Of a stretch of DNA of 64,000 nt, positions 3,126 to 33,086 are shown in pieces (the first letter of the stretch is position 1; each line of letters begins with the position of its first letter). The stretch lies in NCBI RefSeq assembly GCF_026914265.1, contig NC_069129.1:18771945-18835944 (forward strand). Reading direction: 5' to 3'. Below the pieces are notes generated by a model. The model ran no database searches. It was not told where the DNA came from and saw only the letters and a program-made list of their open reading frames with translations. The translations under genes were made by a program, and so were the position numbers. This stretch comes from Mya arenaria. Lineage: Eukaryota > Mollusca > Bivalvia > Myida > Myidae.

Positions 3126-6100
3126 ATGGCAGATACAGGAAAAGATTACATTTCAAACAGTGCTGATCCTAAAAATATCCAGGATCTCACAGGCTTTGTA
3201 AGTACCTTTGTTTTGGCGTTGATGCCATTGTATTTGACTCTTTAATTTCTCTAAAAATTCATGAAGTTTAAAGCCTGTCACAACTTGACTTTTATTTTTT
3301 GTAAGGAATTAATACAGTATAAGGAGTATATATTTTTTCAGAATTTCGTGAACATCTATTGAAATTTTTTACCAAAGATAAACATAACATTTTTATGCTT
3401 CACAACGTTTAATTCCCAAAACATGAGAATGCTGAATGTTTTTATAAGAAATAATTTTATAAAAACATCTCTGCAACGAGTCTTTCAGATGAACATACCC
3501 AAATCATTTCCATTTACCATATTGTAGTGTGTGTGCGGATAAGAACCAGCCGCCAGGTGAGCTCAGTTGGTTAGAGCTCCGTGCTAGTGTTTCGGCTGTA
3601 GTGGGTTTAAGCCCCACACTTTTCTTCCCAAGTAAACTTTAATTGTGGCATCGGTAATCGGTAGTAGTGCCTCCGTCGGCCTATTTAATAGGTTTATGGG
3701 GGAAGGAGTGTAGTATATATATGTGTTAAAACCAGCTGTCCGTTGACCTCAGTTGGTTAGAGCTCCATGCTAGTGTATTGCCGGTCAAGGGTTCAAGCCC
3801 ACACCAGGCGCACTTATCTTCCCAAGTTTACATATTCGTATGTATCCAAAGCATTCTAATGATGTTGTGCTTTAGTATAGATATCATCACTAATATGGAA
3901 TGTAACAAGCGCCATTATTATGCAGTTCAGAATTTTGTATATTGTATATAGACTTATTAAAGCTGCATTCCATCAGACTGGCAACTGCCTTTGTGGTACA
4001 TTTATCGAAAGTATTAATTCTTAATTTGTATGGCATTACAATGTGTCAAGATTTTTTGACAGATGTTGTTTCTTCCAATTAGAATTCATTTCACCATTTT
4101 TTACAGGATTTGTAGACTCAAATTCCTTACTTTAAAAAAAATATATGTTTTAAGTATTGTTCTATGCATGAATTTATCCTGTTAAAATGTATAGATAAGA
4201 AGTCCTGGCCTTCATTTGACAGCAACTCATTCAACCTTTTTAGATCAAATATTGGAGGATGAGAGTAGTCTTGTCAGTAGTCGTACATGTAATTTAAACA
4301 AGTTCATAAGCAATGCCCCGGTAAAAGGACTCCCAGTCTTGCTCCAAAATCAGGATTTTGATATAGGAATGCAAATCATGTAAAGCATTTATGTGTTTAA
4401 TTTAATTGAGATTTGATTTAGGCGTTTTCTTGATATATGAGTATGGGGTTTGTTCTCACAATATCTTCAAAAAAGTAAATCATTAAAAGTGAATAATGTT
4501 TTACAGTATATTGCAACATCGTCTAAAGGTATGTGTATAATTATATACTATCAGGGTTCCCGCTGGCGATCGCCATTGTCGTCATTTGCGACAAAATCGC
4601 AAAAGTGGCGACAACTTTTCAAATTTGGCGAGTTTATGGCGACAACGATTTTTTTCTAAAATATTTTCTTAAAATGACGTAAGTGGTGACCATGCGGCCT
4701 GCATGATAATCGATTCTGTCACTGTCATAAATCAAGCGCATCTGCTGGTGCGACAACAAAAATTAATCCGATAATTAGGGCAAGCAGTCACGGCCCAGTC
4801 AACACCTCGCTAATTATTGCAGAATTTTATTGCTTTCACGGATAAACAATGACATCCTTTAACTGTTATGTCTCTTATTAGCAAACAATTTTAATATTTA
4901 GCTCAACAGCCTTGTTGTCGTGTTAGTTTTAAATATGCAAATCATAGAATTTTATGTTGTCGGAAAGTCACGTGATATGCAAATTTCGTAATGACGTTTA
5001 CGCGCTAAAAATAGACTTGCTTTCGGTTTTGTCGCAATTTGTAATTGCTATAAATGCAGCATTCTAAGAGTTCAAAAACAGTCAAAAAGATTAACAGAAA
5101 TCAAATAAACAAGGATTAAACCCCATTTGATAAGGCTTCTAATATGTTGGCTGGAGTAAAGAGTAGGTAGACAAATTTCTATTAGGAAAGTTATGGCCCT
5201 AGTTTGACAATGTATATTTCTTTGAGTTTTCATTTATTTTAAATTTATCTCATAATTTCACAAATGTATTCTTTTATTGTATGCAGGCATTAGACTGAAA
5301 TCAACATATTGATGTTTATGTCACATTTTTTGCAATATTTTTTTATTTATATACTAGTCCATATACAATGAATTTTGTCAACAGAATAACAATTTGCTAT
5401 TAATATCTTGTGCTTCATGTACAACAAAATGTTATGATTTGCACGACAATGTGCTAATTAAATGCAATTTAAGGCTCTAAAAATGCTTAAACCCCATGAG
5501 CTTCGGGGGGCTTCGCCCCCTTGGCCCCCACAAGGGCGCTGCCTTGGACCCGTAAGGGGGCCTATCGCGGCCCCCTTAACCCCTTGCGAAAAAGTGGCGA
5601 CAACTTTTTAGAACCCAGGGGGAACCCTGACTATTAAAGTATTTTTTGTCAATATATAAAATACTTTGTATGAATTAAAAGACCAAAAGTTACAGAATTT
5701 GCTATAACAAGATCTATATACACAAGGGTTTTAGCTAAAGAGTTATGGAAGGGCCTTACACCCTGTCCTTTTTTGATAGCACCCTTTCCCTCCTAGAGAC
5801 CAGCATGTGCAACTTCCTGCATACTGATAGAATTAAATGCTTTCTTTTGTTTTGATTAAAACTTCAAAAGTGATTATAAATTCATACAAACTCGATATAA
5901 TTGCCAGTTAAAACCTAATATCACTTAATAACTGTACCCTTTTCTCCCCTAACACCCTGTCTTTTTTTCTACAGCAGTTCTGTCATATTAAAATCTGGCT
6001 AAATCCCAAAAACATATACATGACTGTTATAGTATAGTAGTTTGCACTAATTGTCATTGAACCATTGTCATTGAGTTCTTAACAATTTTTCATTGCGGAA

Positions 6101-9100
6101 ACCTAATTTTTTTGCATTTTAATTTAAAATGGAATCATTTCAATTAATGGAATTACCTTCCATTGAAAGTGTATTGTATCAGTGATTTCAGGCAGACTAA
6201 TTGTTTCATGGTTTACGACAGGAATTTCATTGTACGGTAATATAAAGGATATGTTAAACCTTTTATGTTAGTTTGTTTCACAAAGGCATTATCGGAATCA
6301 ATAAAATCAATATTGACCCGACCGTGAGAGAGTTAAACTTAACAACCCACAATGGGCTAGTTATACCTGCTTATCTTTGCAAGTTTAGATCAACAATGAA
6401 TTCGCTGAGTGGCCACAAGAGCATTTAATACAATGAACAACTGCCATATTTGTTTAATGTACTCATTCTGTCTTAACTGACTACAAAGCTGTAAACTTAT
6501 GTTTATCTTTGGCTGAGAAATGGTACATTTTAAGGAATGGTACATTTTAAGTAACGATTCATTTTAAGAAATGGTGTATATATAAGAAATTGTACATACA
6601 AGTTAATGGTGCATTTTAGGTAAAGGTGTATTTTAGGTGCATTTAAAGTAATGGTGCATTTTAAGTAATGGTGCATTTTAAGTAATGGTGCATTTTAAGT
6701 AATGGTACATTTTAAGTAATGGTACATATAATGGTGCATTTAAAATAATGGTGCATTTAAAATAATGGTGCATTTAAAGTAATGGTACATTTTAAGTAAT
6801 GGTGCATTTTAACAACCAATGATGAGGAGACATAAACATGCATGTATCTTTTAAGTTCCAAAGTTAAGGTTCAATGCAAATGCAGTGTTGTGTCAACCAA
6901 ACTGATTGATTTCTTGACTTAACTTAATTAAATTATGTCTATATAGCTATAGCTCTTAATTGATATAAATGAGAGTACCGTTTCACTGTAAAAGTTAAAA
7001 ATTGATGACGTTAAGTTCATTGCACTTAGTGCCCTGTAATGGTTTTTTGCATGTTCGTACACAGGGTTTGAACCATCACATTGCCAGACAGACTGTTTAC
7101 CTGTTGTTTTTTCTCATCAGTGGCCCTCTTCTGTGGAATGAGGACGTTAGTTTTAAAAGTAATGATATTGTAATGTGTTTTGTTTTGTTTTTCTCATCTC
7201 TCGTCTTGTTGATTGTAGCAAATAACTTGTGGTGATGTCCCTGAAAACCTCTCAACTTTAGTCCTCTTATGATATTCTTACATTATTTACATTATGTGTA
7301 CGGTAATGTTTGTGTGATTTCAGGTTCAGAACCTGCTTCAACAGATGCAGGACAAGTTCCAGAACATGTCTGACCAGATCATCACAAGGAATATCCTTTA
7401 TATAAGTTTTCTGGGGAAACAAATAAGAAAAGATTTAAGAAGGCTGAATGGTCCCATTAGCCTGTAACTTATAGAAATCCAAATTGTAGGTACTGGTAAA
7501 AGGGCTTGCGCCAATTAGGTTTGCTAAGCACCGCTTTTGTTTTTACAAAGCAGAAATGGAAGAATTTCAGCTTATTGATCTATTTTCAATGATAATTTTG
7601 AACAGTTATAACACGTAAATTACAGTAAAATATAAGCACAATCTAGAATATGCAAAAAATATTGTATGAAACCAACCAAGATTTCATATATATATGTTAA
7701 TTTAATTATCCTTACAAAGGCTTCAGTTTAAAGAAAAAGATATCTTTTAAAAAAATAATTCATTGAGGTCAGCCTACTATTTGCTTGTGTTATACAGTTT
7801 TTATAATGTATTTACTTGCACATCATTGTGTGTATAAAGGTAAATCTGCCACTCTTTACATTACAATGATGAAGAGTTCTGAACGAAATGAGGATTTGCT
7901 TGAGCTAAATTGGTCAAATATGGCTTAATCTATATGTTTTTCTATGTAATTTATTGAAGGCAATGTCTTCCTTATAATCAACATTTCAATTTTTCTGTTA
8001 TAAAATATGGAGATACAAAACAATCATGGGCTCTTTCTTATGATCAAGTTGTTTTATTTATTACAAGGTAATGCTTTCCAGCGATTTTATCAATATTTCC
8101 AATTTTCCCAGCCCTGTTTCATTAAGTATTCACAATAAAACTGTTGCAAGCGTTGAAAGGTCACTCTGATTTAATAACCAGTGGTTTACTCTATATTGGC
8201 ACTTCACAGAGTGTATTGAAGTTTATTGCAAACAGTATTTCAGTATTGATCATTGGCTTTATTGAAACCTGATCGTTCAAAGAGTGTATTGGCTCAAACT
8301 TGATTACAATGTACTACCAAGAGGATTATGCAATGTGCAACATTACTGCTATCAGTTATAAACAAAGATTATGGCATTTGTAATGTTTGCTACTGACTTC
8401 ACATGTTAATATTTCATTCAGGCAAATACAAATGTACAGGTGTGCAATTTAGAAAATTATGCAATAAACAATACAAACCCCTTTACATTTTTACATGTGC
8501 CAAGTTTGATTTTCTGATCCGTATGGTAGTTATTGATATTTCTTGCATAAATTGAACTTGTGTTTTCGGTCATGTGACCAGTGTTGGAAAACCCGTCTTA
8601 CACCCCCCATGTTAGATGTGTCACGCACAACTAGCCACTTCTTATTTTTTTTATTGTATGGTTTATTAAAAGTATATTATGCCATTTCAATAAAGCGCAA
8701 TCAAATAAGTATGCAAGACTTTTAATTAAAATTGAAAATAAATAATTTTTAGAGGAACTATTTGACATCAAAAGTGATTTAAAATTACTGTGCTCTATGA
8801 TGTTGTTCACTTTTTGGTGAAATGTACAAAAATGTGATTTCTAAGTCAATTTTTCCACAAATTGGTAATTTTAGTTATGCAAGAACAATATCAGTCATGT
8901 CTTTCCGGTTTGAGTAGAAAAATCCAACCCTTGAGCATGTTGCATGGCCGGTAACACAGCAAGCCTCATTACTAGCTTACACACATGTCCTCTTGTCAGA
9001 TTTTTCTATCCATACCGGAAACACATGATACATGTAGATACTTGTATTCTTATAGCATTCTCCTAGAACTTTTTCCTTAACCTTGGTCACTAGATGAAAT

Positions 9101-9176
9101 GGGAAACAGAATCGACGACCTTGAGAAGAATATCGCTGACCTTATGACTCAGGCTGGCGTTGACGACCGTGCATAA
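3126..9176 (+). CDS. HSBP1: Heat shock factor-binding protein 1 (three coding exons)
   Basis: Coding exons are 3126-3197, 7324-7390 and 9091-9176, which join to 225 nt (74 residues plus stop), close to the ~76 residues usual for the family. HSBP1 is a small nuclear coiled-coil protein that binds the trimerised oligomerisation domain of heat shock factor 1 and damps the heat-shock response; this is family knowledge. The sequence shows the conserved core: NIQDLT (about residues 17-22), [20 protein letters not shown] (25-44), and [18 protein letters not shown] near the C-terminus, with hydrophobic heptad spacing. The ATG at 3126 is the only one in frame before the homology. Intron 1 is GT-AG and phase 0. 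Intron 2 is phase 1 and only joins the homology if spliced AT-AC. The gene converges with GPATCH1, whose stop codon is about 5.7 kb downstream. Confidence 0.96.
3541..3833 (+). mobile_element. tRNA-derived SINE, two heads in tandem
   Basis: Two tRNA-like heads lie about 180 bp apart in HSBP1 intron 1. Each has an A-box-like GCTCAGTTGGTTAGAGC or CTCAGTTGGTTAGAGC. Each also has a B-box-like GGGTTTAAGCCCC or GGGTTCAAGCCC, followed by a CACTTNTCTTCCCAAG tail. A short AT microsatellite separates them. The same two-head layout recurs at 32402-32695. Confidence 0.75.
4552..5629. mobile_element. Non-autonomous DNA transposon with CAGGGTTCCC termini
   Basis: The left end CAGGGTTCCCGCTGG and the right end CCAGGGGGAACCCTG are near-perfect inverted repeats. 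A 5-bp direct repeat ACTAT flanks the element (4547-4551 and 5630-5634). Next to each end is a direct repeat containing AAAAGTGGCGACAACTTTT. The right part holds a GC-rich palindromic stretch (about 5505-5585). No transposase frame is present, and I cannot name the superfamily. Confidence 0.8.
6519..6815 (+). repeat. 17-bp minisatellite, HSBP1 intron 1
   Basis: About 15 imperfect tandem copies of a unit close to TAATGGTGCATTTTAAG. Variants include TACATT for TGCATT and shortened units. Confidence 0.85.
7391..9090 (+). other. HSBP1: U12-type AT-AC intron in HSBP1
   Basis: Exon 2 ends at 7390, after AGG A. The intron begins ATATCCTTTA, the canonical U12 AT-AC 5' splice site. Near its end it has TTCCTTAAC at 9073-9081, the canonical U12 branch site, and it ends GGTCAC at 9085-9090. 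The branch adenosine (9079 or 9080) is about 10 nt from the 3' end, within the narrow range typical of minor-class introns. Joining 7390 to 9091 restores [14 protein letters not shown], matching HSBP1 orthologues. No GT donor or AG acceptor nearby gives this frame. Confidence 0.95.
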
Positions 9177-15163: not shown

Positions 15164-18100
15164 CCCCAAGAGATTGATATCAGATGTATAATCATTGTAA
15201 GACTAATGTCACTGGTCTGCGGAATGTCTTAAACCATTAACTATCAAGTATTAAAACTTATAATTGTACCTATTGATTATTTCCTTGTCCGTTTCCCTAT
15301 CATCCTCATCACTGCTCTCCTCCCGTTCAGACGAGTCTGATCTTTCGTTGACATGTCTGGAACGTTTCTCCTTCTTGCGGCCTTTCTTCTTGTGCTTACT
15401 TTTCTTTCGTTTCTCCTGGAAAATTGGTTTTCATAATTAAATCCTTTGTAATTAAAACAAGTCTTTAAAAACAAGGCCAACTTTTAAGGACAGTCATGAA
15501 ATATTCTCACACTTGAGTGGTTATTTCAAAACCTCAGAGACTAAAACCTTTCAAGAAAGATTTCAATTCTTCAAACAACCTTCATATATCTATTTTTTTC
15601 ATAATGATAGCAGAAAAGCAGAATTATTACACTTTTACATACATGCCCGATACTCCACATTACAGTCATTAATTAATAACCGCTTTCAGCAGTTACAGAA
15701 CAAATTATCACTTCATTTAAAGACTTTTCACCAGTTTTCTAGAAACCCATTTAATACCATCTTCACCATAGACTATTACCAATCTACCTTTTTCTCTTTC
15801 TTGTGTTTATGCTTGTCTCTATGTCTGTGTTTGTGTTTTTTGGTTGACTCTTTTGTAAGGTCTACATAGTCATCAGGTGGTCGGTCTTTCGATTTATCAT
15901 TAGTGAGATCAATGATGTCACCAGCTGGCTGGTTTCTCGATTTTTCATTAGTGAGATCAATGAAGTCACCAGCTGGCAGATCTCTCCATTTATCATTTGA
16001 TGCTGATGCAGCACCTTTAATGTTAAAAAAATCAATATTAGAAAAGATATAGAACATGGATATTACACTTATTTGGTCAAGTGATTGTTTGTTAAAAAAG
16101 AAGAACATAATTTGCAGCAAATTGTATGAAAGTGATTAACACCTTGGTTTTATCAAAGATAGCCAAAATGTTCATGAACCGGTCAACAGTTATCCACGAA
16201 TTACATTTAACCAATGAAATCAACTAGCCTTAAAAGATAACCTGCAATGATTTTAATAACATAATCATAACATTATCTTTATATCCATTTACTAACTTTG
16301 CAAACATCATGTAAACATATGGAGTCTGAAACTTGTATTGAAGCAATGGGAAAATGGCGCATCTGTATACCTTCACTGTTAACATGTGAATATCTTGTAT
16401 CATCAGAATGGTTTTAGAGTTATAGCCAAGGCTTAAAATTGTTGCATGACACTACCAAACATGCCACAAGTGCTGTAACAATACCATAAAACTGACAAGC
16501 TAAAAACTGTAAACGCTACATATTCAGCCAAACCTTGTGGTAGGGAAGGAGGTAAAGCAGGTCCATATGCATCTGATTCATCCCCACTGGAATCCTGGGG
16601 CTGACCAGCTGACCCCTTTCCAGTCTCCATGGGGCTGATCTCTGGGGGCAGGGCTACGAAGGATCCACAGCCTGCTAATGTGGACTGTTTGGGTGGGGCA
16701 GTAAAGCCTGGCAGTGATGTGGCCGGAGTGGCCTCAACCGAGTCTGTGAAAAATAATATTTTTATAGCTTAAAAAGTTTTAACTGAAAAAGTGGTCTTCG
16801 CGTAAAATCTTTTGCGATTTGAATGCAGTTATTAAAGTCACAAAATACTGTTTAGTTTGGGCAATGCAATATTAAGACGAATTTACAAAATGATCACACA
16901 TATAATAAGACAAGAGCTCATCAATTTTACTAATTTGGTCAATGGGCATATCTCAACAGTATTTAATGACAAAGTTATTTACTTTGCTACACATTTCGTT
17001 GCATAATATCACTAGTAACATGTGTTCTAAGTTTCATGTGAATATCTAGAAAATATTTTTAATATTGGTTTAAGATTTTGCCTGCTGCTACAGCCACAGC
17101 CTAAGACACAATGACAATACCTTGCTCAACTTTAGATAAAAACAGCAGTCTGTATACAGGTGTTAGTCACATTTAAAATATTTATACTAATCCTGTGTCA
17201 TTATCAATGAGCTATTGTGCAGCTGACTGTGACCTTGACCTACTAACCACAAAAACAAAGAAGCCAACTACATGTCAAGAGCAACCTACCAGTGAATTGT
17301 CATGATCCTAGGTCAAACCATTCTTAAGTAATTGGTAGGAAAAAGGGTTTTTAATATAGGCCCTTGTGGCTTACACTCTTATAGCATGACATTTTGGGTA
17401 TTTTTATCCAAAGCATGAACATAGCTCATTCAAAGGGAAAAAATCAGTGAACTACATGTTTTACAGAGGTTGAAGGGAGATAACCCCTAGAATAATACAC
17501 AACTCTGTACAAGTTGTCCCCCTTAAAAATACTTTTGCTTGGGCTGAAACATTTTAAATCTGGCTGGTCTTAAAATGGAACCAGGCTCTCACCTACAGCT
17601 AACTATTGTATAAGTCTTATTGAGATACAATCAAAACTGAAGACTGTATCGCATTAAAAAGTAATTGTTTACGGATGCTTGGGCAATGAGCACCACGCAA
17701 TGGCATAAACTTTTCTGGACTCTGGCCAATAGAGCTGAAAACCATTGCCGTGCCTTTTGACCAAATATAACATGGGTCAAGAACTGGTCAAGGGCAAACG
17801 GACCAATGGAGTTTCATGGTCCTACATCTATCTGCTCTTAAAATCTTGGATAACAAACTTTTCAGAAGACTAGAAAGTGACCTTTATTTCTGATCTACTC
17901 ACCCCCTGAACAACAGGGGTGAACAACTAGTCATGGGTAACCTACCTCTAAAGTTTCATGGTTCCCAGTCAAACTGATCTTAGTTCATTTGCAGCAGAGA
18001 CATGGTTTACCAACAGACTTACTGACTTGCAACCTGACCTACTTACCATCCAACATTTGCAAAACTATTTGCCCCCTCTAACTTATATGCCCTCATTTTA

Positions 18101-21100
18101 GAGGGCATACAAAGGGATCTATAAATTACTTTCAGACAAAGCTTGTTTCTACTTACCGGAGATTGAAAAAGCTGGTTGAAAGGAACTATCCTGTGCATCT
18201 GGTAGTTTTGAGGAACTATCCTCTCCATCCTCCTCCTCAGAACTGGAGCTATCCTCGGAGTCAGTGTTTCTAAATATAGCTCTGAACAGGTCCATAGCTG
18301 GAGCACCATCAGTCTGTGTGAAAATAAACATTGAAAGATTTGCTGAGCACAAATAATCATATAACAATGAATTATTAGTAAATCTTAAAAGAAGCCCTGA
18401 ATAAAAAATCTATCACCCATTAAACAAAATATCAATGAGTAACAATGAAACACCACCAATCAAATACAAATGGTCACTGCATTTGCCCTGCTACTTTCAA
18501 AAAGTGACAAACTTGAAACCTTGTGAAAATACCTTATATACGAGTTTTCAAATGTATGATAATACTTCCACATAACTTTTTTTAATCATGTTTTCAATAT
18601 AACTTTTGGCATATACATTGTTACATGTACATGTATCATAATTCCTGGTATACTGGCAATATCAGACTAATAATAACTAGAAATGTGTCCATAGGACACG
18701 GATGCCCCCACTTCGATTTTTTGTCACAGAAAATAAGCCATAATGATTATTCAGGATAATCTGCACATATAGGATAAGTTGAGTTGAGTTGGGTTTTACG
18801 GCATCGCAAGACTGTATAGGTTATATGGCGCCATTCAGGCAGGAAAATACTTGTTGGATCCACATTGGACACATACTTTTCAAGAATTAGATTGGAAACA
18901 TATATTTTTGAAGTATTTTTGGCAAAAAAGGGCCGTAACTCCTAAATGACTAAAGCGATTTCCATGACTATCGAACTTGATCAAGATATTATGGTCACAA
19001 ACATGTGTTTAAAGTTTGGTGAGGATTGGACAAACAGTTTTCAAGAATTAGATTGGAAACATATATTTTTGAAGTATTTTTGGCAAAAAAGGGCCGTAAC
19101 TCCTAAATGACTAAAGCGATTTCCATGACTATCGAACTTGATCAAGATATTATGGTCACAAACATGTGTTTAAAGTTTGGTGAGGATTGGACAAACGGTT
19201 TTCAAGAATTAGATCGGAAACAATCTTCGGGACGTACGTACGTACAGACAGACAGACGTACGTACGGACAAGGGCAACCCTATATGCCGCCACTTTGTGG
19301 GGGCATAAAAATCGTGAAAATTGGGCTCCAGTAGGAGGGATTAAGTCTCAAAGCAGAGTTAAGAGACTAATGATTCCTGCTGAAAAAGACACTTTATATC
19401 TATACTGGTACAAAAATATGAAAGTGAAAGCCCTCAATCTGGAGTTCAGGATTAATGCTCAATTTTATCTTCCCTGTATTTTGTTTATAAAAAAACTTAA
19501 ATTCACGTTCTTGCCTAACCGGGGACATACCTCTGATTTTTCAACAAGTTCAGCAAACTTGTCTGTTTTACTGACAGACTTCCCAGCTGCTGTTTTACCA
19601 GCATCCGCAGCATTTTCATCGTTATCTGTTTCCATGGCAACAGGTGCAGGTTTCACAGTATTCTCCCCTTTCTCAAGATGGCTAAATATAGACTTAAACT
19701 CTTTAGGTTTGTTTGATTGTACAGATTTAACACTAAATGAAACCGGTTTATCACTTTTCAGGTTAGATGCCTTTTGTGCCCCTTTTTCAGCATCAATAAG
19801 ATGGCTGAATATTGATTTCATGGCTTTTCCCTTGTTCAATTCTTTATCAACCTTACTAGTAGTATCAGTCTTATCTGTATCAGTTTTAGCATTGTCTTTT
19901 TTCACTTCTTCTGGGGGTGGTGTTTCCTGGGTTTGGGACCCCCTCCTATCATAGGCCATCTCTGTTGGGTTAGCGAAGTTAAGGAAATTGAACACAGAGT
20001 ACTTGTCCCTCTTTGCTGAAATTAGGCCAACTATTGTAGACCTGAAAATAATCAAAATATACAGAATTTTAAAAAGGTTTGTTTGTATTCTTTAATACAG
20101 CTGTATAAATGAGAAACAATTGTTTTATTTAATCTTAGTCTAAATCACCCTCTTTTTATGTAAATAAAAGAGAGAAAAAAAGAAAAAAGGGAAAAACAAT
20201 GTGTGCATAATTAGTCTTTGATCCAACCAAACATCAGAATTATAATTTTGCACACAAGATTCAAATAATTACTTCATTTCTACATTGCTTGACCGCATAA
20301 TTGCTTTATATGTATATGCAATGCATGAGCATAATTACTTCATATCTACAACACATGACGTGGCATAATTACCCTATATTTACCATGCATGATGCCAATA
20401 TAAATTCATTTCTACATTTCATAAAAACATAATTTCTTCAAATCCAAAATGCATTACAACATAATTTCTTCAAATCCAAAATGCATAACAATGCATTACC
20501 ACATAATTAATTCAATTATAAAAATGCATGACAGCATCATAACTTCATTTGTATCATGCATGACAGCATGTTAACTTCATTTGTACCATGCATGACAGCA
20601 TGTTAACTTCATTTGTACCATGTATGACAGTCTCTTAACTTCACATATCCTAATTCATAATTCATAATGAATATGAATAATATTGTCTACATATTTTCAA
20701 TAAAAAGTTCACATACCCTGGGTATGGGTTTGGCACATTAAATCGTTTACAGACTAGATTGTCAGGGTGCCACTCTTCGTCCTCCCTAGTCAGCTTCCCG
20801 TACATCTTCATGGAAGCTGCTTTCTCTGCGTCTGTCTGGTCAATCTGTCAACACATTTTAAATCACAAAATATTGCAGAATACTTGTTTCACAACGCAGA
20901 AGCGCTTTCAACTTAATGACTACGTTAAACCAAAATATTTGTAATACCCGGTACCTATGCTTTGACAAATCCTGAATTGGACTCAAATCAACAAATCCTA
21001 TGGTAGACACATCTAGCAAGGAAATGATGTCTATCTTACAGACAGAGCTGGCTTAAACGGAATGTACACCAGATTGGCACCAATTTTTTTTTCTGTAACG

Positions 21101-24100
21101 AATCTCAGGACAATTATTTAATAAAATGTTCTACTCTTTGTTATCATAAATGTAAAACAAATACCAAAATGTAAACAAAAAATTGACTCGGGGACTGGGT
21201 TCGAACGTGTGTCGCCAAAATTGCAGTCTAGCGTTGTATCCACTGTGCTACGAAGACTTAGCCTAAACAGTTGGGAGTATTTAAGCTATATACCTAACTT
21301 GGTTATATCACGTGATAACATCGACTAGCCAATCATTCATGAGGAATGAATTCTACTAGGTAGACATACCTAGTAATCTTTTTTAATGGTAAAATACGAA
21401 AAAAACTGCGAAAAATTAATTAAATGTGACTTATGTGGTACTTCAGTAAGTGAGTTTTAACGCATTGTACACATCGATACCAAGTTTATGTCAGTTTTCG
21501 ACAATTTTCTTCTTTTTTTTCGCTTTTTCATCATATGGAGTACAGTCCCTATAATTGTGGTTGGTATCATCAAAGAGGGTAAGGGTAACTTTGTAAACTC
21601 TTAACATTTAATTAATGCCATTCGCTGTATGTTCTCTTTTAACATTCTCAATCATCCTCAGTAGTTTTTGTACGGTAAAAGCCACCATCATGGATGCTAA
21701 TGGATGTTACAGGTGGATGGTCTAGATAGCTTAAATCTGTATATTTCATTAATGCCCCTCACTTTATGTTCAATTTTAACATCTCATCTGCAATAGTTTC
21801 TGCACATGTAAATCATGCAGCCATCATGGATGCAAGGGTCAGTTCAGGAGGACAGTCTTGCAAGACCCCTTACCTCACACCAAAGCCACTTACTATTTGT
21901 TCCACCTAGACATCAAATCCAACCATCCTCAATAGGTCCTGCATGAGTAAATTGTGTGGGCGTCATTGAAGCCAGTAGTCGGTACAGGTGAGCGGCCTTG
22001 CAGGACACCTTTAATTATACCAAAGCCACTTACTGTTTGTTCCGCCTTTACATCCTCCCCACCATCCTCAATAGTTCCTGCACGTGTAAATCGTGCAACC
22101 TTCCTGGACGCAAGAGTCAGTACAGGAGGATGACCTTGCTATACCCCCTTACATAACATCAATGCCACTTACTGTTTGTTCTGCCTTTACATCAACCCCA
22201 TTATCCTCAATAGGTCCTGCACTGTGCCTGCACATGTACATTGTGCAGCTATCATGGATGCTAGTGGTTGGTACAGGTGGACAACCCTGCTTAACCCCTT
22301 TCATGACACTGATGCCACTTACTGTTTGTTCAGCCTTGACATTCTCCCCACCATCCTCAATTGTTCCTGCTCATGTAAATTTTGCAGCTATTATGGACGC
22401 TAGTGGTCCGTACAGGCGGGAGGGGATGGGGGGGCTTGCAGGACCCCTTTCAATACAGCAATGCCACTTACTTTTTGTTCAGCCTTTACATCTTCCTCAC
22501 CATCCTCAATTGTTCCTGCACGTGTAAACCGTGCGGCCATCATTGATGCTAGAGGTCGGTACAGGTGGGCGGCCTTGCTAAATTCCTCCCGCTCTCTCTC
22601 TTTCTCCCAATCTGTTTTTCCGGGCATACCAACTAACAGGTATGGTTCTGTAGAGATAATATTTCAGGATATTGGTTACTTGTTGACATAAAAGAGTAAG
22701 GGCTATAACATTAAAACATATAACCCCCGGGCGAAAGCCTCTTTTAAATTATGCCACACCCCAACAGAAGCAAATTTACCCTTCTCGGGTCCAAATTAGT
22801 AAAAAAAGACACCCACTTATATACTATTTAAATTATTGCCTTTCCCCCCGGGAGTTATATGTTTTACTGGAATAGCCCTAAATGTTGATCGAATAGCTGA
22901 AAGAGGTTTATTTACATAAGAAAGTACTGATTTTTTTATCAATCAAAATCAAATCAATACGCTTGCGATCGCAGTTGATTCATGTAAACAAGTAAAACCA
23001 AATTGAAAGGTAAAACATAACATAATATTATCATAAAGTGCTAGAAATCAGTTCCAGTTGGACTGTCGATAATCGGTTCTGACACTCAAGAAACCAGAAC
23101 AATTGGTTTTTGACAATACCTTATTTGTAATTTATACTTGTACAAATACTCGTAAACCTTAACTATGCTTAATTAGCCTTATGTTATGTCTATTTTTGCG
23201 GATATTCAGTGTTGTTGTTGCTTTTGGCCATACAGTTAACGATAACAACTGAACATTGACAAATGTATAAATAAACTCAAAGGAGAACATAGGCAGAAAT
23301 AAACTGAACGCAAATAACAAGAGGAAAGAAGCTAGTTGAATTGATGTTCACTATAACCAAATACAATCGATTGTCACAGATTTCAGGCCAAACCAATCAT
23401 AATCATTTTTTGATTATAATCAATCATCGGAGCATCACTAATATTATATATGTACCTTTGTGCCCATGTTTGACTGCTTCTAGATATTTATCATATCGCA
23501 ACTGTTTAGCTGGATCTTTGCTGAATGGTTTGAAAATGGCTGCTCCCTGGAATAAAGGGACACCACTCTTTCTATGCTCTTCAACATTGGAGGTAGATTC
23601 AGTAGTAGTGGAATTATCTCCCTTAGGTTGATCTTCACTACCTTCAAGTGTCTCAGAACTGACAAATGTTCTTAAAGGGAAGTTCACGATTGCTGTGGTA
23701 TCAGTATTTTGCTTGGCTTGATTTATTCTCTCCTTTTCTTCCTTGGGTATAAGATCAAACACAGATCCTGCAATAAAACTTCTTTAAGTACACGATACAA
23801 GAATCTTTATTTAAAGTCAGGTATGTGTAAACAAGAAACATTAGCTCAATGAGCTATTTTCAGACATGAGCAATTAATAAAAAGCATTGACAGGACAATT
23901 TCAATACTTATAATTACATTTACATTAATTCAGGGGATAACAAGTTAGGTTGCAAGGAGCAACACATTACAAAGTATCTTAATGTATTTGGTTTACGCAT
24001 TTTATAAAAGAAATAATAAATTGATTATAGCCAATTATGAAATCATTATCTATAACAATATAATATTGTACATTTGTTATAAACTGATGCAAATTCAATG

Positions 24101-27100
24101 CTATATACTTATATTGTGTATATTTGTGTATTGCTTAAGAGATCAGAAGCCTTTTAGCATATTTATATTTGTCAAATGTCAATACGAATTGAGGCGTAGC
24201 TAAGTCATTTGTCCAAAAAGAATAACTGTCAATTCTAACAAGGAAAATATCTGAGTGAACTGTTTCATAGATTCTAAAGCAAGAGATACTTTTACACTAG
24301 AGTTCCAAGAAAAATAACTAGTCAATCAAGTCATCACTTATAACATTCTATTTCTGAAAAAACACACACTACTTTACCACTTCTTAAGCTGAAATGATCT
24401 TATATAACAATCTTTTATAACAAAAGAACAACCTACCAACAAATGCCTGCTCCCCGAGAGCGACACCTCTACTTGTAGCATCATGACGCTTCTCCCTAGC
24501 TGATGAACCTTGACTCACACTGCCAGGTGCTGAGCCTGGAACCAAACCAGAGCTGCTGGTTCCAGGCACAGGGCTGGGCCCAGCATCAGAAGGTTTTAGG
24601 AACTGCCTGTAGTCCACACCTGTACTGGACTGGTTTCTAGTCATTACTATTGACTGGTCATCTGACTTTTTGAATCTGTGCACTGGTCTACAATGAAAAC
24701 AGAGTGAGAATTTTCATTGTTCAGAGATAATATTTCGTAGAGATTGTTTTTATATATATTTCATTGCACTTGTAAACAGAAATAAACTAGACTTAACAGG
24801 AACTTCAAAAACTTTACAGGTATCTAATACAATACATTAACGCAAAAAAATGTGACATTTATTCCATCAAAAAAAGTCTCTTCACAAACAATCCAATATC
24901 GGTACTTGCTATTTAAAGAGTGAAATAAATAGGCCATGAGAGATATCAACCCTTGTAAGTTTTTCTTAGTTGGTCAAGGGCCATCCCTTACGATCTGCGT
25001 TATGGGAACTTGTTAATCTTATACAAACTGTCCATGCAAACATTTGAATATGTTTCATTGTTTATATCTTAAACAGTTACTATGAGTTACAGAATACATT
25101 AAATTTTGCACAATAACAACAAGGCTATAACAACACATCAACTGTTTTTAATGAATAAAAATACACACAAAAATGATCATAATTACCTAAAGTCCCTGGG
25201 GAGGGAAGGGGGTGGGAAGTCTTTCTTCTGGACCAGTTTCTTGGAGGAGAGAGAAAACCCATCTAGCAGTTGCCCCACATAGCCCACTGGTGTCTGCTGC
25301 TTCTGACCTGCCATAACATATTACTTATCATTATCTAGCCCACCTTAAGTCCTTAAGGAGGGTTGGGTGAGGGAAGTCTTTCATACAAACCAGTTCCTTT
25401 AGTGTGACAGAAAACTATAGTGGCCGATACAATACTTTTAGCAGAATAAGTTCAAGAATCAGACACTATACCAACAACAACAAAAGTTGTCATGTCTATC
25501 AGAGTAGTATATCTTCAAGAATCTTATACTTTTAGGAATCCTTGGCAGTGATTATCATTTTTTACTTGTTTGCAGAAAAACAAGCTGATTGCCAGATAAA
25601 GTTGATGCTATGAAACCCTACCCCTATGAGTTGGTGCAGTCCATCCAAACTTGTCATCTCCCTCACCGCCCATCGTCATGTCATATTTGGACATGTCATC
25701 CATACCGTAGACATCATCATCCTCATCCTCCAGAGCACCGACACCAAACCCCTGTATCAAATGGAAGTGATTGAGGGTGATATGTTTAAGTTTGAATGTC
25801 CCCTTCTTTTGCTAAACTGAGAGGTCCACAGAGCATGTCGTCATTTCTCATCCTCCAATGCAAGCCAAAAAGCCACAACTAGATTGAATTACCTATCAAC
25901 TTATTATATAAGAATAGTTGGTAAAATGTGAGTTGAACTCATAATAAATATGTGGTATTCAAAATGTTTGTTGGGCCTGTTCAAATTCGGAATGTCATAA
26001 AGCAGGCCTTTTTAATTTCTTTTACACCAAGTAAGATTTTCAAGAATTTGGGCTAATTCATCCCAAAGTCTGTTTTTGAAGACTGCTGAAAATGGCAATA
26101 TAATACTGGCCAATGACAAAAACAGGACAGAAAGAGACAAAACACACAATAAGTCTTAAACTGTCATGCTGCTCTAGAATACCTGTCCTCGTATTCCTCT
26201 TCTACTGGCGCCAGATTTCCGTACAGTTGGGGCCTCAAACAGGTTGATGTGTGTAGAGGGCAGGGCTTTCCTGGGGTCCAACCCGCTGTAGCCCAGACCA
26301 TGGGTGTTGTCCTTGGCACCTGTCATTACACAAAGGTAATCAGATTTGAGTACAGGCGGGAACTCGAAAAATTAAATATTTGTAGAGAGTAGGGCCTTCC
26401 TTGACTCCAACCCACTGTTGCACAGTGATGTTGACAAAGATGATGGTGACAATAATGATGACAACGATGATGATGATGATGATTGCCTCACAGGCCAAAT
26501 TTGTAACAAGGCTTCTTCCCCTTTTTTTCAGAATAAACTGAATCTTTATATACATATGAAGCAGAATGTGGATTGTGTCGGTCAGAGCAAATGTGACATC
26601 AGACATGACTTTTCGTAGTGTTGGGAATCAGACAGAAAAATAACTATCGATAATCGGTTTATGAAACCGATCAATGATCTATTATTAATTGATGTAAACA
26701 TTATTTAATAATATTTCGTCATCATATTTAAGGCATACAGATACAGCATCAGTTTTAAGCACCAATGTTCCCTCACAATATTGTTTGTACATTTCTTCGA
26801 TAATTTACATTATTTATTCAGAACGCAACTGTCTTTTCGTGTTTACAAGTTACTTATACATAACATGAGACCACAGGCTCTAATTTTTGTCTTACATTTA
26901 GTATTATATTCATGTGTTAAATAAACACAGAAAGATATCGTTATCTTTTTAATAATCAGTCAGTAACAAGACAGTACAACAAGCAGTTGAATATATTTTT
27001 ATTTTACAAGAACATATCCTTTCAGAAAACTGAGAAAACTTTATTCTTACATGGTAAGAAGTAAACGGTAATATGTTTTAAAATTCACTTTTAGACCATT

Positions 27101-30100
27101 ACATGATAAGTTGAAACTAATCCTTTAGCAGTTAAATTGCGAAGAAAATTTGTAATATGGTACTGTAGTGACATTCTGACTTGATAAGAATATGACTTGA
27201 TAACTTAAGATAGTAACACCTTAACACTTAAGCATTAAACAAAAAAAAATTAGTCGGTAGCATTTACATCCCTTGTATGTATAATCAATTGTTCAAATTT
27301 CACTATCGATTGTCGCCAACATAGGCCTTTCAGATAAATTGTCGATTATAATAGATCATCGGCACAACACTAACTTTTCATCATCAAGATAAGTACATAC
27401 CAAGCAGTATATGCGCTGTGTCAGTCGGAGCAAATGTGACGTCAGACAAGACTGTTTCATCATCAAGACCGTCGTCTCCACTGTCGGGGCTTGGTGGCCC
27501 AGTGCAGCCATAGATCCTTCTGCCTTCAGCTACAGATATAGTAACACTTATATAAATTACAATACTTAGTCAGACAAAAAAAAACATCAAACCTGTTTTC
27601 ATGTAATATCAATCAACCAATCATAGTAAACCACCCAATACACCCAGGATTTGGTATAATGTCTTGGGTTTACTAGTTAACTTAATACTAACTTCTTAAG
27701 CTTCATTGTGGCAAAAGCTGATAGCTTATAGAATCACTCTTTAAGTCGGTTTCCTGGATTTATTTATGTCCATTGTATTTGTAAGAGGCAAAGAGAAAGT
27801 AACCCTGTTGGGGATTGAACCCACATCCTCTTGGTCGAGAGTCGAACACCTATACCACTTTCACTTTCATAATTATGAAAATCATATTGTCTCATTGGCA
27901 TTGTTCTTTGTAATTGGTGTAAACTTGATTGCTTTGCATGACAGTGATTTCAAACAAGCACAACTATGCAACCTATGAACTACTGACGTTGGTCTTGTGC
28001 CTGATCATGTCTTGTCATACGGTACATTAGTGCAGGGAGGGTATTTTAAAATCCCCCAATACATGGTCTAGTTACAGCCCGGAAAAGACAAAATACAAGC
28101 AAATTTTGACCTAACCTTGCTTGACATAAGACAATTCATCACTAAGTTGTATTTGTTATCATGTGAAATTTAAGGAAACAATAATTTTTAGAATAACAAT
28201 TATTATCAAACCTTGTTTCTGTTTCCTTGACAACCTGGGTCCCACTCCCTGCCCTTCCTTCCAGCCCATCTTTCTCAATAGTCGCACTCCTACAGTAATT
28301 CTGTAAAAAAGGAAATCAAATGGCTCCATTTTGCCTTTAACATAAAATTCATGAAGACTTTTATCTTGCAAATGCATAATTTCTTTTAACCAGAGAATCT
28401 GTATCAGTAAGCACAGTAACAGGGCAGCATTAGCACAAGCAAGGCACAAATAAAAGGGGTGAAGGGCTTTTATTATATAAAATTTATAATTTACATCTCC
28501 CTTATGTTTGCTACAGTTCTCACAACCAGTATTGTAAAAAAATGAGGCAAGTTCTAATTTTGATGATTATGGATTTAACACATGCAATTCAAACAATAAG
28601 CCATTTCTTAAAACAATATACCTTTCAGGTACAATTAGGTTTAACAGTGTGGTGTCCCCTCCCAAAATGGAATCTGCTGTTGCAAGTTTGGCCTCATCAA
28701 ATGTCCGCTTCTTCCTCTCTTCCGAGGTAAACTGGGCACTCGTTACAAACTTCCTAGGGGCTATTCCATGCTCACTAATATCCTTAAGAAAAAAAAAAAA
28801 ATAATTGATTGTTGGTAAACAATAAATTTTATAAAACTTGTTCTTGCTATCTACAAACTTGGCATATCCACGCACATATTACTGCCAAGTTAGTATCATG
28901 CACCCTTCACGCACATAGTCTCAGAAGATTCTGACACTGCCAAATCTATCCAATGTGGTATATAAGCAGATCACCGCCTTTACAGAAATCGTTCGTATAT
29001 GTTCATCTTGTGTGCATATTCATTTGTTTAAGTTCATTTTGACATTTATTTTGTCTGTCAGAATGACACTTATTTTCTCCCAAAGGACTGGTGAGTTAGC
29101 ACCTAGCAGGAAAGTCTCCAGCCAATGCAAATGATCGTTTTATTGTGATTGTCTTATTGACTGTGATGTTCGTGTGTTTTTATTTTTTCATAAGTGTCCG
29201 ATTGGTTACTTATTAGTCTGTCTGTCCCCGTTTTTATGCGAGAGTGGAAGCGTCATTTTCATTGTCTGTTAAATTCCTAAAGGAGCAGTTTATGAAAAAT
29301 GTGTTGCTTTTTAATGAAAAATTTGTTGCTTATTAAACTGGATATCAAATACTTTCTACAGTAATTCTATTTCCTGTATTCAGTGGTAAATTGTATTTTA
29401 ATATTACTAATTTATTACATTTATCTTCATTTACATGCAAGATATTACAGATACAGAAATAGCAAAATCTACAGTGACTTATTTACCAGTATTGTCATTG
29501 TTTTATGATACTCATCATGTAATTAAGTAATACATGTTTATGTTAATAATTATTTTAAGTTCATATTATTTTGGTTCAGACCTTTTTTTGCAGAACCTTT
29601 GTACAAACATTAAATTTTGTATGTACGCCTTAGTTTAAAACCATTCTGAACAACCACATTGTGTGAATTTAAATAAAAGTTGGAACCCACCCAAGAGACT
29701 TTATAATTCTGTTTGAATATACTCATTACTGAATTATATATTTAAGGTAATCATGTTTTAGAAAAATAGTCTGTATTTACACATAAAATATACACTAATA
29801 TCAACAGAAAGTAAAAATTTGTTAATTGGTAAGTAATAAAACTGTGTTCTTAATGTTCCCAAATAAGGTCTTATCGCTAAAAGGCGCAGACAGCATTAAA
29901 AATAATACTCAAAAATCACTGGAATATATTCAATATGGGATATGAATACTGCATCCTGTGACAAACTCATCAAACCTCTTCATCCATAAAATCCTCTGGT
30001 CTTTGTCCCGAGCCTGAGCCATCTGTCCGCTTCTCTCTTGATGAAACAAATGTGGAAGGGGTGAATCCTGGGCATAAAAAACATATGGGAAATTAAAACA

Positions 30101-32313
30101 AAACATTATTGTTAATAGTATCTTTATCAATTTCAGATAACAAATAACTTGTATTCTAAGCTAATATCGGAACATTCTGATGCATGTATCACAATTTTAA
30201 TACTTAAAAAGTATAATAAGTATATTACTCAAGATAATCCAATAATGATAAAACTGTATTGTAATTAATGATGTATATATAATAGTGTGTATTTTGGGCT
30301 GGAGGCCTTTATGTTCTGAATAAAGTTGAGTTGAGTTAAATATGCTTAAGATGTCTAATGCTGATAAAAAAAATGTGTTCTGTTGAGACCCATATTGTCA
30401 TTGAGCTTTCTCATAATAAACAACTTGAAACAAATTTAAACTGCTTCATCTTAACATCTTACATTTAATTTTTAATTTTTACTAAACTTCAATAACAGGC
30501 TTTCATTAATTACAAAAATTTATAATTTCATCTTGCTTTCTAGGGCTGTGTATCACCGGACAAAAGGCGATCTGATTCGAATCGCGATCTTTGATTAGCG
30601 ATCCACGAATCGATTCACGATTTATTGGTTATAAAGCAATACATATTTTGAAAATAAATGAATAATTAAAGTATAACAAAAGCTTCATTTTTGTTTAGTT
30701 TTCATTTTTTTGTCATTCTTTACATCAAACCTGAAATATTTCCAGAATTTAGAAGAAAAGGATGCTGGGTCATTTCTATATAGCGCTGAATTTGATGTTT
30801 TTGTTAACGGGGATGCCATGTTGGCATTGAATTGCAGACAAAAATAAACGATAGCTGCACATAAGTTTCGCATTATTTTATTATTGTAGATCTTCTCTTT
30901 ATAATTTCTTTAATGCCCTTTGACTTTTCATTTCTTATTTCTAAATTTGCATTCATTTTAAAACATTATATTCCCTTAAAACCTTGACAAGAAGCATTCT
31001 CCATTCCAACATCGCACACTGCATTGAATGCTAGCGCTGTATGAATTAACTTGCGGTTGCGTCAGTGCAACGTATTTCGGACATTTCGGATAAACAATTC
31101 ATTATATTTTTTAAAACAACCACAATATTTGCTGGAATTGAATTATCTCATTTTGTTTTATTCTTTTATTAACTTTTGCACTTGAATCACGATCCAGCGA
31201 TCACTGGCAAATATTTGTGTTGAATATTTTGCTTTGACTCGCGATTACTCGGGTACTCGTTACAGCCCTATTGCTTTCCTTCTCACCCAAATGTTCACTA
31301 TTGCCTTTTCTGACCAATTTAGAGCCAGCATCAAGCCCTATTTCAAATGCTTAAACATGTACTTTTCTTAAATGTGAAAATAAAATTCACCAATTTAGGT
31401 TTTTAAGTTTTTATTTGATTTATTAATAAAAGAAAAATGGACTCCTCAACCATTTCTGTATGGAAGAGTTGGAGTATTTTGAAAAAAAAAACAACCTAAA
31501 TCACCTTCTTTGTATTTTTAAAAGCATTCTTGTTCATTCGCAAGCAAAATTTGAGTTCCCAAATTCAGTCAAAATAGTGATTTTTTTGCAATTAGAAAGG
31601 CTCTGACCCCATTTCCAAAATGGTGAGTTTAAAATTTGCTGTATTTAAATAACTTCCTTAAATATTCTTAACTTTAATTTAATTAAGTGTTCCAGAAGAA
31701 ATTTGGATGCTTTCTCACCTTGATGGAAACCCTAACATGTAAAAACAAAAAAGAGAATAGACAATTAGAAATATATCTATTTTTGATCATTGAATATTCT
31801 ATATATTGATGAGTTTTATATTTTTTTCCTGTCTGCCCACCTTCTCTGGATCCCACTGTGTTGAAGTACCCAGCAGAGAAGCCACCTGTGAAGGCTCCAT
31901 GGAACCGAACTCTTCCTTTACTGTCCTTGACAGACATGTCTTGAACAGTGATAGGCTTTTTAACTGGCTCATCTGTAAAAATTATTAAATTTTTTAATTA
32001 CATGTTTAATCGTGTTTCATAAAAAAATCCTGAAATAATTACAGAGATTTCAGAATAATTCTTCAGACAGTGGATGCCCATGATGGCTTATCATCTAAGA
32101 AGACAGCAGCTACATGGGCAACTTATTTATATATCTGATTTTCCCAAATAATCATTTAGGTTCATTTATGCTCATTTGCCTTTTACTCTTGACAACATTT
32201 AAATACACCTTAGGAAAAAGAGGCTAGGTGCAAGGTTTGAATCTGCAACTACTGGAACATTAGCACCAGTCTCTAATTGAGTTAACCAGATGGCTTGATC
32301 ATAAGCCGTTATG

Positions 32314-32362
<49 letters not shown>

Positions 32363-33086
32363 TGTGTATAAAAACCAAGCAGTAATGTAGGGTTTGTGTG
32401 CGTATATTAGAGAACCAGCCGCCAGGTTAGATCAGTTAGTTAGAGCACTGTGTTAGTGTTCCGGTAGTTGTGGGTTTGAGCCCCACACCAGACTCACTTT
32501 TCCACTAAGGCTTACTATATTGGTGTCAGAAGTAGAAGGCAAGAGTGCCTGGATCAGCCTTAAAGGTAAATGGGGGAGGAGTGGTTTGTGTGGGTAAGAA
32601 TGAGCGGCCTGGTAAGCTAATTTAGTTTGACCTCCATGCTAGTGTTCTGGCAGTTGTGTGTTTGAGACCCACATCAGGCACACTTTTCCTCCAAGGAATA
32701 CATAAGTAACACACACACACACATTACAGAAAAAAATTCACTTTTCTATAAATTCATTTTTCTATTTATAAACACTGATGGTAGCAGATCGAATGTTAAA
32801 CGATCAATTGAAACCGTCGTTGAAATGGTTTTGAAATGAGATGCAAGTCTGCTTTGGAACCTTTCCCAGATTCAGTGATAGCTGAATGAAAAACGATAGC
32901 CTCGAAAATACATGAAAAACCTAAATTTAAAATCTTATCAATTGTGTCATAGTATGAAAGAAAAAAAAAGAAAATAACGAAAAAGTGCTTGACTTCAACA
33001 GTAATTAGACCTTTATCAGGAACATCCAAAGCCGTTCCAATTGAAACAAACGTTTCATCTTCGTCAGAATCACTATGCGCCGCCAT
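14827..33086 (-). CDS. GPATCH1: G-patch domain-containing protein 1 (19 coding exons, one frameshift)
   Basis: Exons 5'->3': 33086-33011, 31972-31841, 30067-29976, 28782-28622, 28300-28212, 27529-27401, 26319-26183, 25751-25622, 25308-25187, 24687-24437, 23767-23456, 22647-22472, 20844-20717, 20041-19531, 18313-18157, 16743-16534, 16014-15788, 15415-15270, 14878-14827. All introns are GT-AG and phases agree, except for one extra base in exon 9. Ignoring that base, the product is about 1078 residues (human about 930). GPATCH1 is a nuclear spliceosome-associated protein whose G-patch is thought to stimulate a DEAH helicase (family knowledge). Landmarks: [19 protein letters not shown] near residue 50 (N-terminal DUF1604 block); a G-patch with [16 protein letters not shown] at about 158-175; FGKLTR-like and [11 protein letters not shown] motifs at about 615-670; an acidic serine tract at about 830; and a Lys/His-rich tail after three IDLT-type repeats. 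The middle and C-terminal linkers account for the extra length. Confidence 0.95.
15121..15166. repeat. Compound CT/TA microsatellite
   Basis: A (CT)n tract followed by a (TA)n tract in the last GPATCH1 intron. Confidence 0.9.
15855..15985 (-). other. GPATCH1: Three tandem IDLT repeats in GPATCH1 exon 17
   Basis: Exon 17 encodes three 16-residue units containing [20 protein letters not shown] and DYVDLTKES, at about residues 954-994. The first two are nearly identical at DNA level, with a 48-bp period. The core of two hydrophobic residues followed by DLT matches the classical SUMO-interacting motif. SUMO binding is an inference. Confidence 0.85.
18690..19310. mobile_element. Intronic repeat with 161-bp tandem units and inverted ends
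   Basis: CAAGAATTAGATTGGAAAC starts at 18881 and 19042, and a variant (AGATCGG) at 19203, a 161-bp period. The unit includes GGGCCGTAACTCCTAAATGA. The whole is bounded by the inverted pair GATGCCCCCAC and GTGGGGGCATA. An ACGTACGTAC/CAGACAGACAG simple-repeat stretch lies near 19235-19270. The family is unknown to me. Confidence 0.65.
20255..20650. repeat. Degenerate ~30-bp minisatellite in GPATCH1 intron 13
   Basis: Repeated variants of GCATGACAGCATGTTAACTT and TTCATTTGTACCATGCATGA. They are best preserved at 20520-20640 and more diverged to the left. Confidence 0.75.
21057..21550 (-). mobile_element. TTAA-type element carrying a tRNA-like segment (copy A)
   Basis: The ends ACGGAATGTACACCAGAT and GGAGTACAGTCCCT are degenerate inverted repeats, flanked by TTAA and ATAA. 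On the minus strand the interior contains GTAGCACAGTGGATACAAC (A-box-like). It also contains ACGTTCGAACCCAGTCCCCG (T-loop/B-box-like). It is homologous along its length to 61962-62757. Confidence 0.75.
21640..22445 (-). repeat. GPATCH1: Six decayed tandem copies of GPATCH1 exon 12 (3' part)
   Basis: The exon 12 anchor CATCCTCAA (plus strand 22501) recurs, with changes, at about 22352, 22202, 22063, 21924, 21784 and 21653, giving steps of 131-150 bp. Each unit contains the last ~110 bp of exon 12 and about 30 bp of the following intron, but no acceptor. The GTAAGTGG donor is kept in the copies at 22317-22322, 22177-22182, 22028-22033 and 21888-21893. The copies carry indels, so they are treated as pseudo-exons. 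Confidence 0.88.
22699..22879. mobile_element. Short MITE with long inverted repeats
   Basis: About 33-bp imperfect inverted ends start AGGGCTAT and contain AAAACATATAAC and CCCGGG. The total is 181 bp in GPATCH1 intron 11. No clear target duplication is visible. Confidence 0.75.
23036..23440. mobile_element. Diverged copy of the hAT-type element at 26616-27372
   Basis: It shares CGATAATCGGTT near the left end and ATCATCGGNGCATCACTA at the right end with the better-preserved element in intron 6. It is shorter and its ends are eroded. Confidence 0.55.
25258..25261 (-). other. GPATCH1: One-base insertion (frameshift) in GPATCH1 exon 9
   Basis: The minus strand reads CTAGATGGGGTTTTCTC. Upstream YVGQLLDG and downstream [17 protein letters not shown] both match the family, but they lie in different frames joined by a run of four G where three are expected. 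Exon phases on both sides demand 121 nt, and 122 are present. It could be an assembly or homopolymer error, a polymorphism, or a true break. Confidence 0.85.
25343..25425 (-). pseudogene. Decayed copy of GPATCH1 exon 9
   Basis: The plus-strand stretch, including GGGAAGTCTTTC and CCAGTTCC, aligns to the 3' half of exon 9 (25187-25280), which has GGGAAGTCTTTCTTCTGGA. It sits about 35 bp upstream of exon 9 in transcript order and carries many substitutions. Confidence 0.7.
25835..25870 (-). pseudogene. Possible decayed fragment of GPATCH1 exon 8
   Basis: CATGTCGTCATTTCTCATCC and the following CTCCAATGC resemble the CATGTCAT and CTCATCCTCCAGAGC segments of exon 8. The match is short and uncertain. 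Confidence 0.35.
26340..26425 (-). pseudogene. Decayed copy of GPATCH1 exon 7
   Basis: The tract includes CAGATTT, TTTGTAGAGAGTAGGGCCTT and CTCCAACCCACTGT. It matches exon 7 sequence (GTGTAGAGGGCAGGGCTTTC, GTCCAACCCGCTGT) in the same order, lying just upstream of exon 7 in transcript order. Confidence 0.8.
26556..27400 (-). pseudogene. Decayed copy of GPATCH1 exon 6, split by a transposon
   Basis: Positions 26556-26615 encode [15 protein letters not shown] on the minus strand, close to [15 protein letters not shown] of the real exon 6 (27401-27529). The remainder of the copy (TTTCATCATCAAG) is found at 27376-27388. It is separated by the hAT-type element at 26616-27372, whose target duplication lies inside the exon copy. 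Confidence 0.85.
26616..27372. mobile_element. hAT-type non-autonomous element in GPATCH1 intron 6
   Basis: Inverted ends TAGTGTTGGG and CACAACACTA, flanked by the 8-bp direct repeat ACTTTTCG/ACTTTTCA. Subterminal CGATAATCGG and CGATTATAATAGATCATCGG are related. No transposase frame is visible. The 8-bp duplication supports hAT. Confidence 0.8.
27740..27880 (-). mobile_element. tRNA-derived SINE fragment
   Basis: The minus strand gives AAGTGGTATAGGTGTTCGAC, then GATGTGGGTTCAATCCCCAA. These are an A-box-like and a B-box-like sequence about 50 bp apart. It lies in GPATCH1 intron 5. Confidence 0.65.
30283..30340 (+). repeat. Retroelement-like 3' tail with TTGAG repeats
   Basis: TTCTGAATAAAGTTGAGTTG ends in a short TTGAG repeat. 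A similar AAGTTGAGTTGAGTTGGG occurs at about 18777. A pentamer tail suggests a non-LTR element or SINE 3' end. Confidence 0.4.
30541..31270 (-). mobile_element. hAT element remnant with BED-finger start
   Basis: The 730-bp element has inverted ends TAGGGCTGT and ACAGCCCTA and a perfect 8-bp duplication TTGCTTTC (30533-30540 and 31271-31278), the hAT signature. On the minus strand at 30685-30873 is a 62-codon frame with [11 protein letters not shown]. This resembles the start of the BED zinc finger at the N-terminus of hAT transposases. The rest of the transposase is missing, so this is an internal-deletion derivative. It sits in GPATCH1 intron 2. Confidence 0.88.
32215..32300 (-). mobile_element. 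tRNA-like SINE head, minus orientation
   Basis: The minus strand reads CTGGTTAACTCAATTAGAG and later GCAGATTCAAACCTTGCACC. It belongs to the same head family as 3541-3833 and 32402-32695. Confidence 0.6.
32317..32370. repeat. GT/GCGT microsatellite
   Basis: (GT)n followed by (GCGT)n between two SINE heads in GPATCH1 intron 1. Confidence 0.95.
32402..32695 (+). mobile_element. tRNA-derived SINE, two heads in tandem (second locus)
   Basis: Heads start near 32405 (AGAACCAGCCGCCAGGT) and 32600 (GCGGCCTGGTAAGCTAA). The B-box-like GGGTTTGAGCCCC and GTGTTTGAGACCC match the arrangement at 3541-3833. Confidence 0.72.

Follow-up and report, generated by a model that had tools for sequence, protein, structure and literature searches.

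Introns of the AT-AC class were originally defined by ATATCCTT, TCCTTAAC and AC, as described in PMC2831892, and a large survey reports a relative enrichment of minor introns in molluscs within the protostomes (PMC10639083). Here we describe an intron of this kind in the bivalve Mya arenaria, within a 64,000-nt stretch of contig NC_069129.1 (positions 18,771,945 to 18,835,944; hereafter the window, whose internal coordinates we use throughout). Positions 7391-9090 of the window are almost certainly intron 2 of an HSBP1 orthologue, predicted to be removed by the minor spliceosome; the motifs, the reading frame, the homology and the small nuclear RNA (snRNA) genes on which this assignment draws were all read from the genome sequence. 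An initial annotation of the window had described AT-AC introns as forming a small fraction of the U12 class itself, which is too strong a statement given that they make up ~26% of human minor introns (PMC10639083; PMC7367187).

The + strand of the window carries a three-exon HSBP1 gene with a product of 74 amino acids (aa). The product of exons 2 and 3 matches the HSBP1 profile PF06825 over profile positions 7-51 of 51 with 92.7 bits (curated cut-off 28.6), the reading frame being intact. Chain 3ci9_A, a solved structure of human HSBP1, aligns without gaps across the exon 2/3 junction for 38 residues (E 3.6e-14). Exon 1 probably belongs to the same gene, based on its position and on known HSBP1 N-termini. 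When a set of viral contigs was searched for relatives, none of the 26 pattern matches was confirmed.

We enumerated the possible joins between exons 2 and 3 by combining 155 donor positions (7325-7479) with 177 exon starts (9000-9176); the 4,604 joins that were in frame and free of stop codons were ranked by similarity to 3ci9_A only, with splice signals left unused. The top-ranked join (score 153) removes 7391-9090, an AT-AC intron with ATATCCTTT and TTCCTTAAC, and splits an Ile codon as A|TA. Ranks 2 to 5 (scores 151, 151, 146 and 146) are shifts of one or two bases, with intron ends AA-CA, GA-TC, AT-TA and TA-CT. The junction 7390/9091 proposed in the initial annotation is therefore clearly the best of the 4,604 by this measure; its further claim that splicing there is the only way to restore the reading frame goes too far, because five GT-AG joins, four GC-AG joins (top score 117) and one AT-AG join are also in frame within the searched box.

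The five GT-AG joins would allow the intron to be an ordinary one removed by the major spliceosome, either 7406-9093 or one of the four others, and the sequence CTAG at 9090-9093, which is preceded by a pyrimidine-rich stretch, could serve such an intron as acceptor. We consider this extremely improbable: all five joins alter the conserved coiled coil, with scores of 134, 117, 102, 83 and 64 compared with 153, and their donors match 3, 4, 6, 5 and 4 of the nine major-class consensus positions, respectively. The best-scoring of them, 7406-9093, has the weakest donor (GTTTTC, 3/9); its product reads NILYIN in place of ID, six residues for two within the coiled coil (net +4), and its PF06825 score falls from 92.7 to 80.1 bits. 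The join 7464-9109 has a better donor, matching 6/9 positions; however, it swaps the middle of the protein for intron-encoded residues. Any GT-AG intron at this location would also leave the perfect U12 signals unexplained.

Those signals consist of a ATATCCTTT donor, a TTCCTTAAC branch site ~10 nt from the intron end and an AC acceptor, all three of which the initial annotation had called textbook examples, and all three are confirmed at exact coordinates (Table 1). The branch adenosine would be 9079 or 9080, which lie 11 or 10 nt, respectively, before the last base of the intron. An in-frame AG at 9092-9093, 3 nt past the AC, is a possible, weaker competing acceptor. A U12-type intron ending at this AG (AT-AG, 7391-9093), as the sole or an alternative form, would share donor and branch site with the AT-AC join, would remain in frame and would place the acceptor 13-14 nt from the branch adenosine. 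This form is nonetheless very unlikely: it scores 133 against 3ci9_A and 79.0 rather than 92.7 bits on PF06825, it loses one residue and also the Ile-Asp pair held in common with 3ci9_A, and AT-AG combinations are disfavoured according to PMC3584512. We infer, then, that AC is used in preference to the AG downstream.

Presence of the motifs by itself means nothing, because their counts in the window are at chance level; the argument rests on their position. Counted over the two strands of the window, exact RTATCCTTT occurs three times (1.90 expected; 28 of 100 shuffles reach three), and with one mismatch it occurs 48 times (48.27 expected). The branch-site sequence TTCCTTAAC occurs twice (0.86 expected), and 22 of 100 shuffles do as well. 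The junction chosen by homology, however, coincides exactly with a perfect donor and has a perfect branch site just inside its acceptor. The joint chance of this is roughly 2e-8 (order 1e-8), an arithmetic product of shuffle rates for the donor (~1e-4) and the branch site (~2e-4) that assumes ~6 near-equivalent donor positions, which is a matter of judgement, and a branch site no farther than 40 nt from the acceptor.

We searched the 1.216-Gb genome assembly (18 contigs) for the minor-spliceosome snRNAs, using Rfam gathering scores as thresholds. All four were found above threshold: U12 in at least three places (best 102.9 bits), U6atac in at least four (best 94.1 bits), U11 in at least two (best 99.5 bits) and U4atac in at least two (best 81.5 bits). 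Judged by these four snRNA genes, the organism appears to possess a minor spliceosome. An Rfam family scan of the window itself gave no matches. Three U12 copies contain GUAAGGAAAA, which by inspection can pair with UUUUCCUU(A)AC if one branch A bulges out; both U11 copies start with AAAAAGGGC, within which AAAGGG is complementary to the donor UCCUUU with one G-U pair; and three of the four U6atac copies contain AAGGAGAG, likewise complementary to the donor UCCUUU. The fourth U6atac-like copy (C15:56114487-56114608) has a clearly lower score of 57.2 bits and carries AACGAGAG instead of AAGGAGAG in its 5' part; it is perhaps a pseudogene or a variant.

The snRNA genes also bear on whether an AT-AC intron in this position might be removed by the major (U2) spliceosome. 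AT-AC introns spliced in this way are known, and Wu and Krainer reportedly described them. For intron 2 this is barely conceivable, as all nine bases of its donor and all nine of its branch site agree with the U12 consensus, and the genome encodes the minor snRNAs. If the minor spliceosome removes the intron, the donor UCCUUU would be bound first by U11 and next by U6atac, the order of contacts that is general for this pathway, and U12 would pair with UUUUCCUU(A)AC at the branch site. The bulged A (9079 or 9080) would then attack position 7391, and the exons would be joined at 7390/9091 to complete the split Ile codon and encode the coiled-coil protein.

A PF06825 profile search of the genome, in which 82 candidates were scored, identified at least four exon matches, which correspond to two HSBP1 genes on the same contig (C8). 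The second gene is inverted and lies at 17.28 Mb, ~1.5 Mb from the copy in the window. It is part of a duplicated block of ~34-35 kb, in which window positions of about -6100 to 27774 correspond to C8:17262083-17297044 in inverted orientation. Identity is ~92-98% over most of the length of the block, although some pieces are lower and the block is not wholly collinear; it could be a real segmental duplication or else a haplotype that was left unmerged. Exons 1 and 2 of the second copy are identical to those in the window, whereas exon 3 has two differences in 86 positions, both silent, and the frame is open. Intron 2 of the second copy differs at 62 of 1,676 aligned bases and has 13 gap runs; its three splice signals (donor, branch site, acceptor) are the same as in the window copy.

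Several observations weigh against removal of intron 2 by the minor spliceosome, or lend it less support than they might seem to. The in-frame GT-AG donor at 7464 equals the donor of intron 1, which also matches 6/9 major-class positions. The branch-to-acceptor distance of 10-11 nt is at the lower edge of the optimum of 11-13 nt given in PMC3584512. At such low divergence one would expect the signals of the second copy to be unchanged, so they are at best weak evidence of selection. Of 8,000 random 18-mers from the window, 128 equal or beat the predicted U12/branch-site duplex (-9.3 kcal/mol), and 1,364 of 8,000 random 9-mers equal or beat the predicted duplex of U6atac with the donor; the pairing energies therefore add little. 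Furthermore, the U12 duplex of lowest energy pairs UUUUCCUUA and then bulges AC rather than the canonical single A.

Table 1. Features of the HSBP1 gene and of its second intron (window coordinates).
Feature	Position	Strand	Remarks
Exon 1, coding part	3126-3197	+	24 residues; from motif search; GTAAGTACC directly 3'; assignment to HSBP1 probable
Intron 1	3198-7323	+	Ordinary GT-AG (GTAAGT ... TTTCAG), phase 0
Exon 2	7324-7390	+	67 nt; 22 residues and first base of Ile codon
Intron 2, predicted minor-class (U12-type) AT-AC	7391-9090	+	1,700 nt, phase 1
U12-type 5' splice site ATATCCTTT	7391-7399	+	Read directly; 9/9 against RTATCCTT(T)
U12-type branch site TTCCTTAAC	9073-9081	+	Read directly; fits TTCCTTRAC
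AC 3' splice site	9089-9090	+	Read directly; picked by homology among 4,604 joins
Exon 3, coding part, through TAA	9091-9176	+	

Intron 1 of the HSBP1 gene contains a tandem repeat of a 17-base unit, AATGGTGCATTTTAAGT, with ~18 copies at 6519-6812. Elsewhere in the window, a 32-base unit forms an array of 38 copies with 92% matches (35978-37202), and two arrays ~2.8 kb apart (46566-47405 and 50157-51156) have similar units of 459 and 474 bases, with about two copies each.

The minus-strand neighbor of HSBP1 has a G-patch domain (28159-28566) and a DUF1604 domain (31683-31997). Chain 9s2f_GP, annotated as “G patch domain-containing protein 1,” aligns to the DUF1604 frame with E 6.4e-15 and to 19465-20091 with E 0.01. 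Based on this homology over 19465-31997, we identify the neighbor as GPATCH1; judging from open frames that resemble one another in character, the gene probably spans ~15.8-33.1 kb (about 15776-33146). The initial annotation had stated that the neighboring gene encodes a splicing factor, a remark that is too strong as a hint about intron 2: GPATCH1 is a splicing-related protein, but nothing that we saw ties it to this intron. In literature considered by title only, we met no link of GPATCH1 to minor splicing or to HSBP1. The other copy of TTCCTTAAC in the window (19978-19986, minus strand) was considered as a second U12 branch site and rejected, as it encodes FLN in the frame that aligns, weakly (E 0.01), to GPATCH1. 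The break of the duplicated block at window position 27774 falls within GPATCH1, and at the second copy the adjoining 1.6 kb, analyzed past the break, contained no match continuing the gene.

A connection between HSBP1 and a U12 intron was not found in open-licence full texts, although a record for other species may well exist; the string “HSBP” does not occur in the main text of PMC10639083, PMC2846911, PMC2831892, PMC7367187 or PMC2952598. For annotation, intron 2 offers a clean reference case, as a gene finder restricted to GT-AG introns may plausibly mis-predict this 74-aa gene. It also offers a simple case of a stress-response regulator that would depend on the minor spliceosome. HSBP1 acts as a brake on heat-shock factor, and U6atac levels are stress-regulated. 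It is conceivable, albeit improbable, that HSBP1 output tracks minor-spliceosome capacity and thereby, in this lineage, couples stress signaling to how long the heat-shock response lasts; if this were true and the intron were old, the link between stress signaling and the heat-shock response would hold in all animals.

Compared with known systems, intron 2 is a clean but ordinary member of an established intron class and presents no new phenomenon. The likeness of the gene to other HSBP1 genes consists of the 38-residue gap-free match to 3ci9_A and the match to PF06825, and the comparison is limited to the matched part. With the AT-AC class as first described, intron 2 agrees letter for letter in ATATCCTT, TCCTTAAC and AC. 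We detected no difference from U12-type AT-AC introns apart from the branch-to-acceptor distance, which is at the short end of the optimal range. With U2-type AT-AC introns (AT-AC II), in contrast, intron 2 shares only the terminal dinucleotides, as its donor and branch site are those of the U12 consensus.
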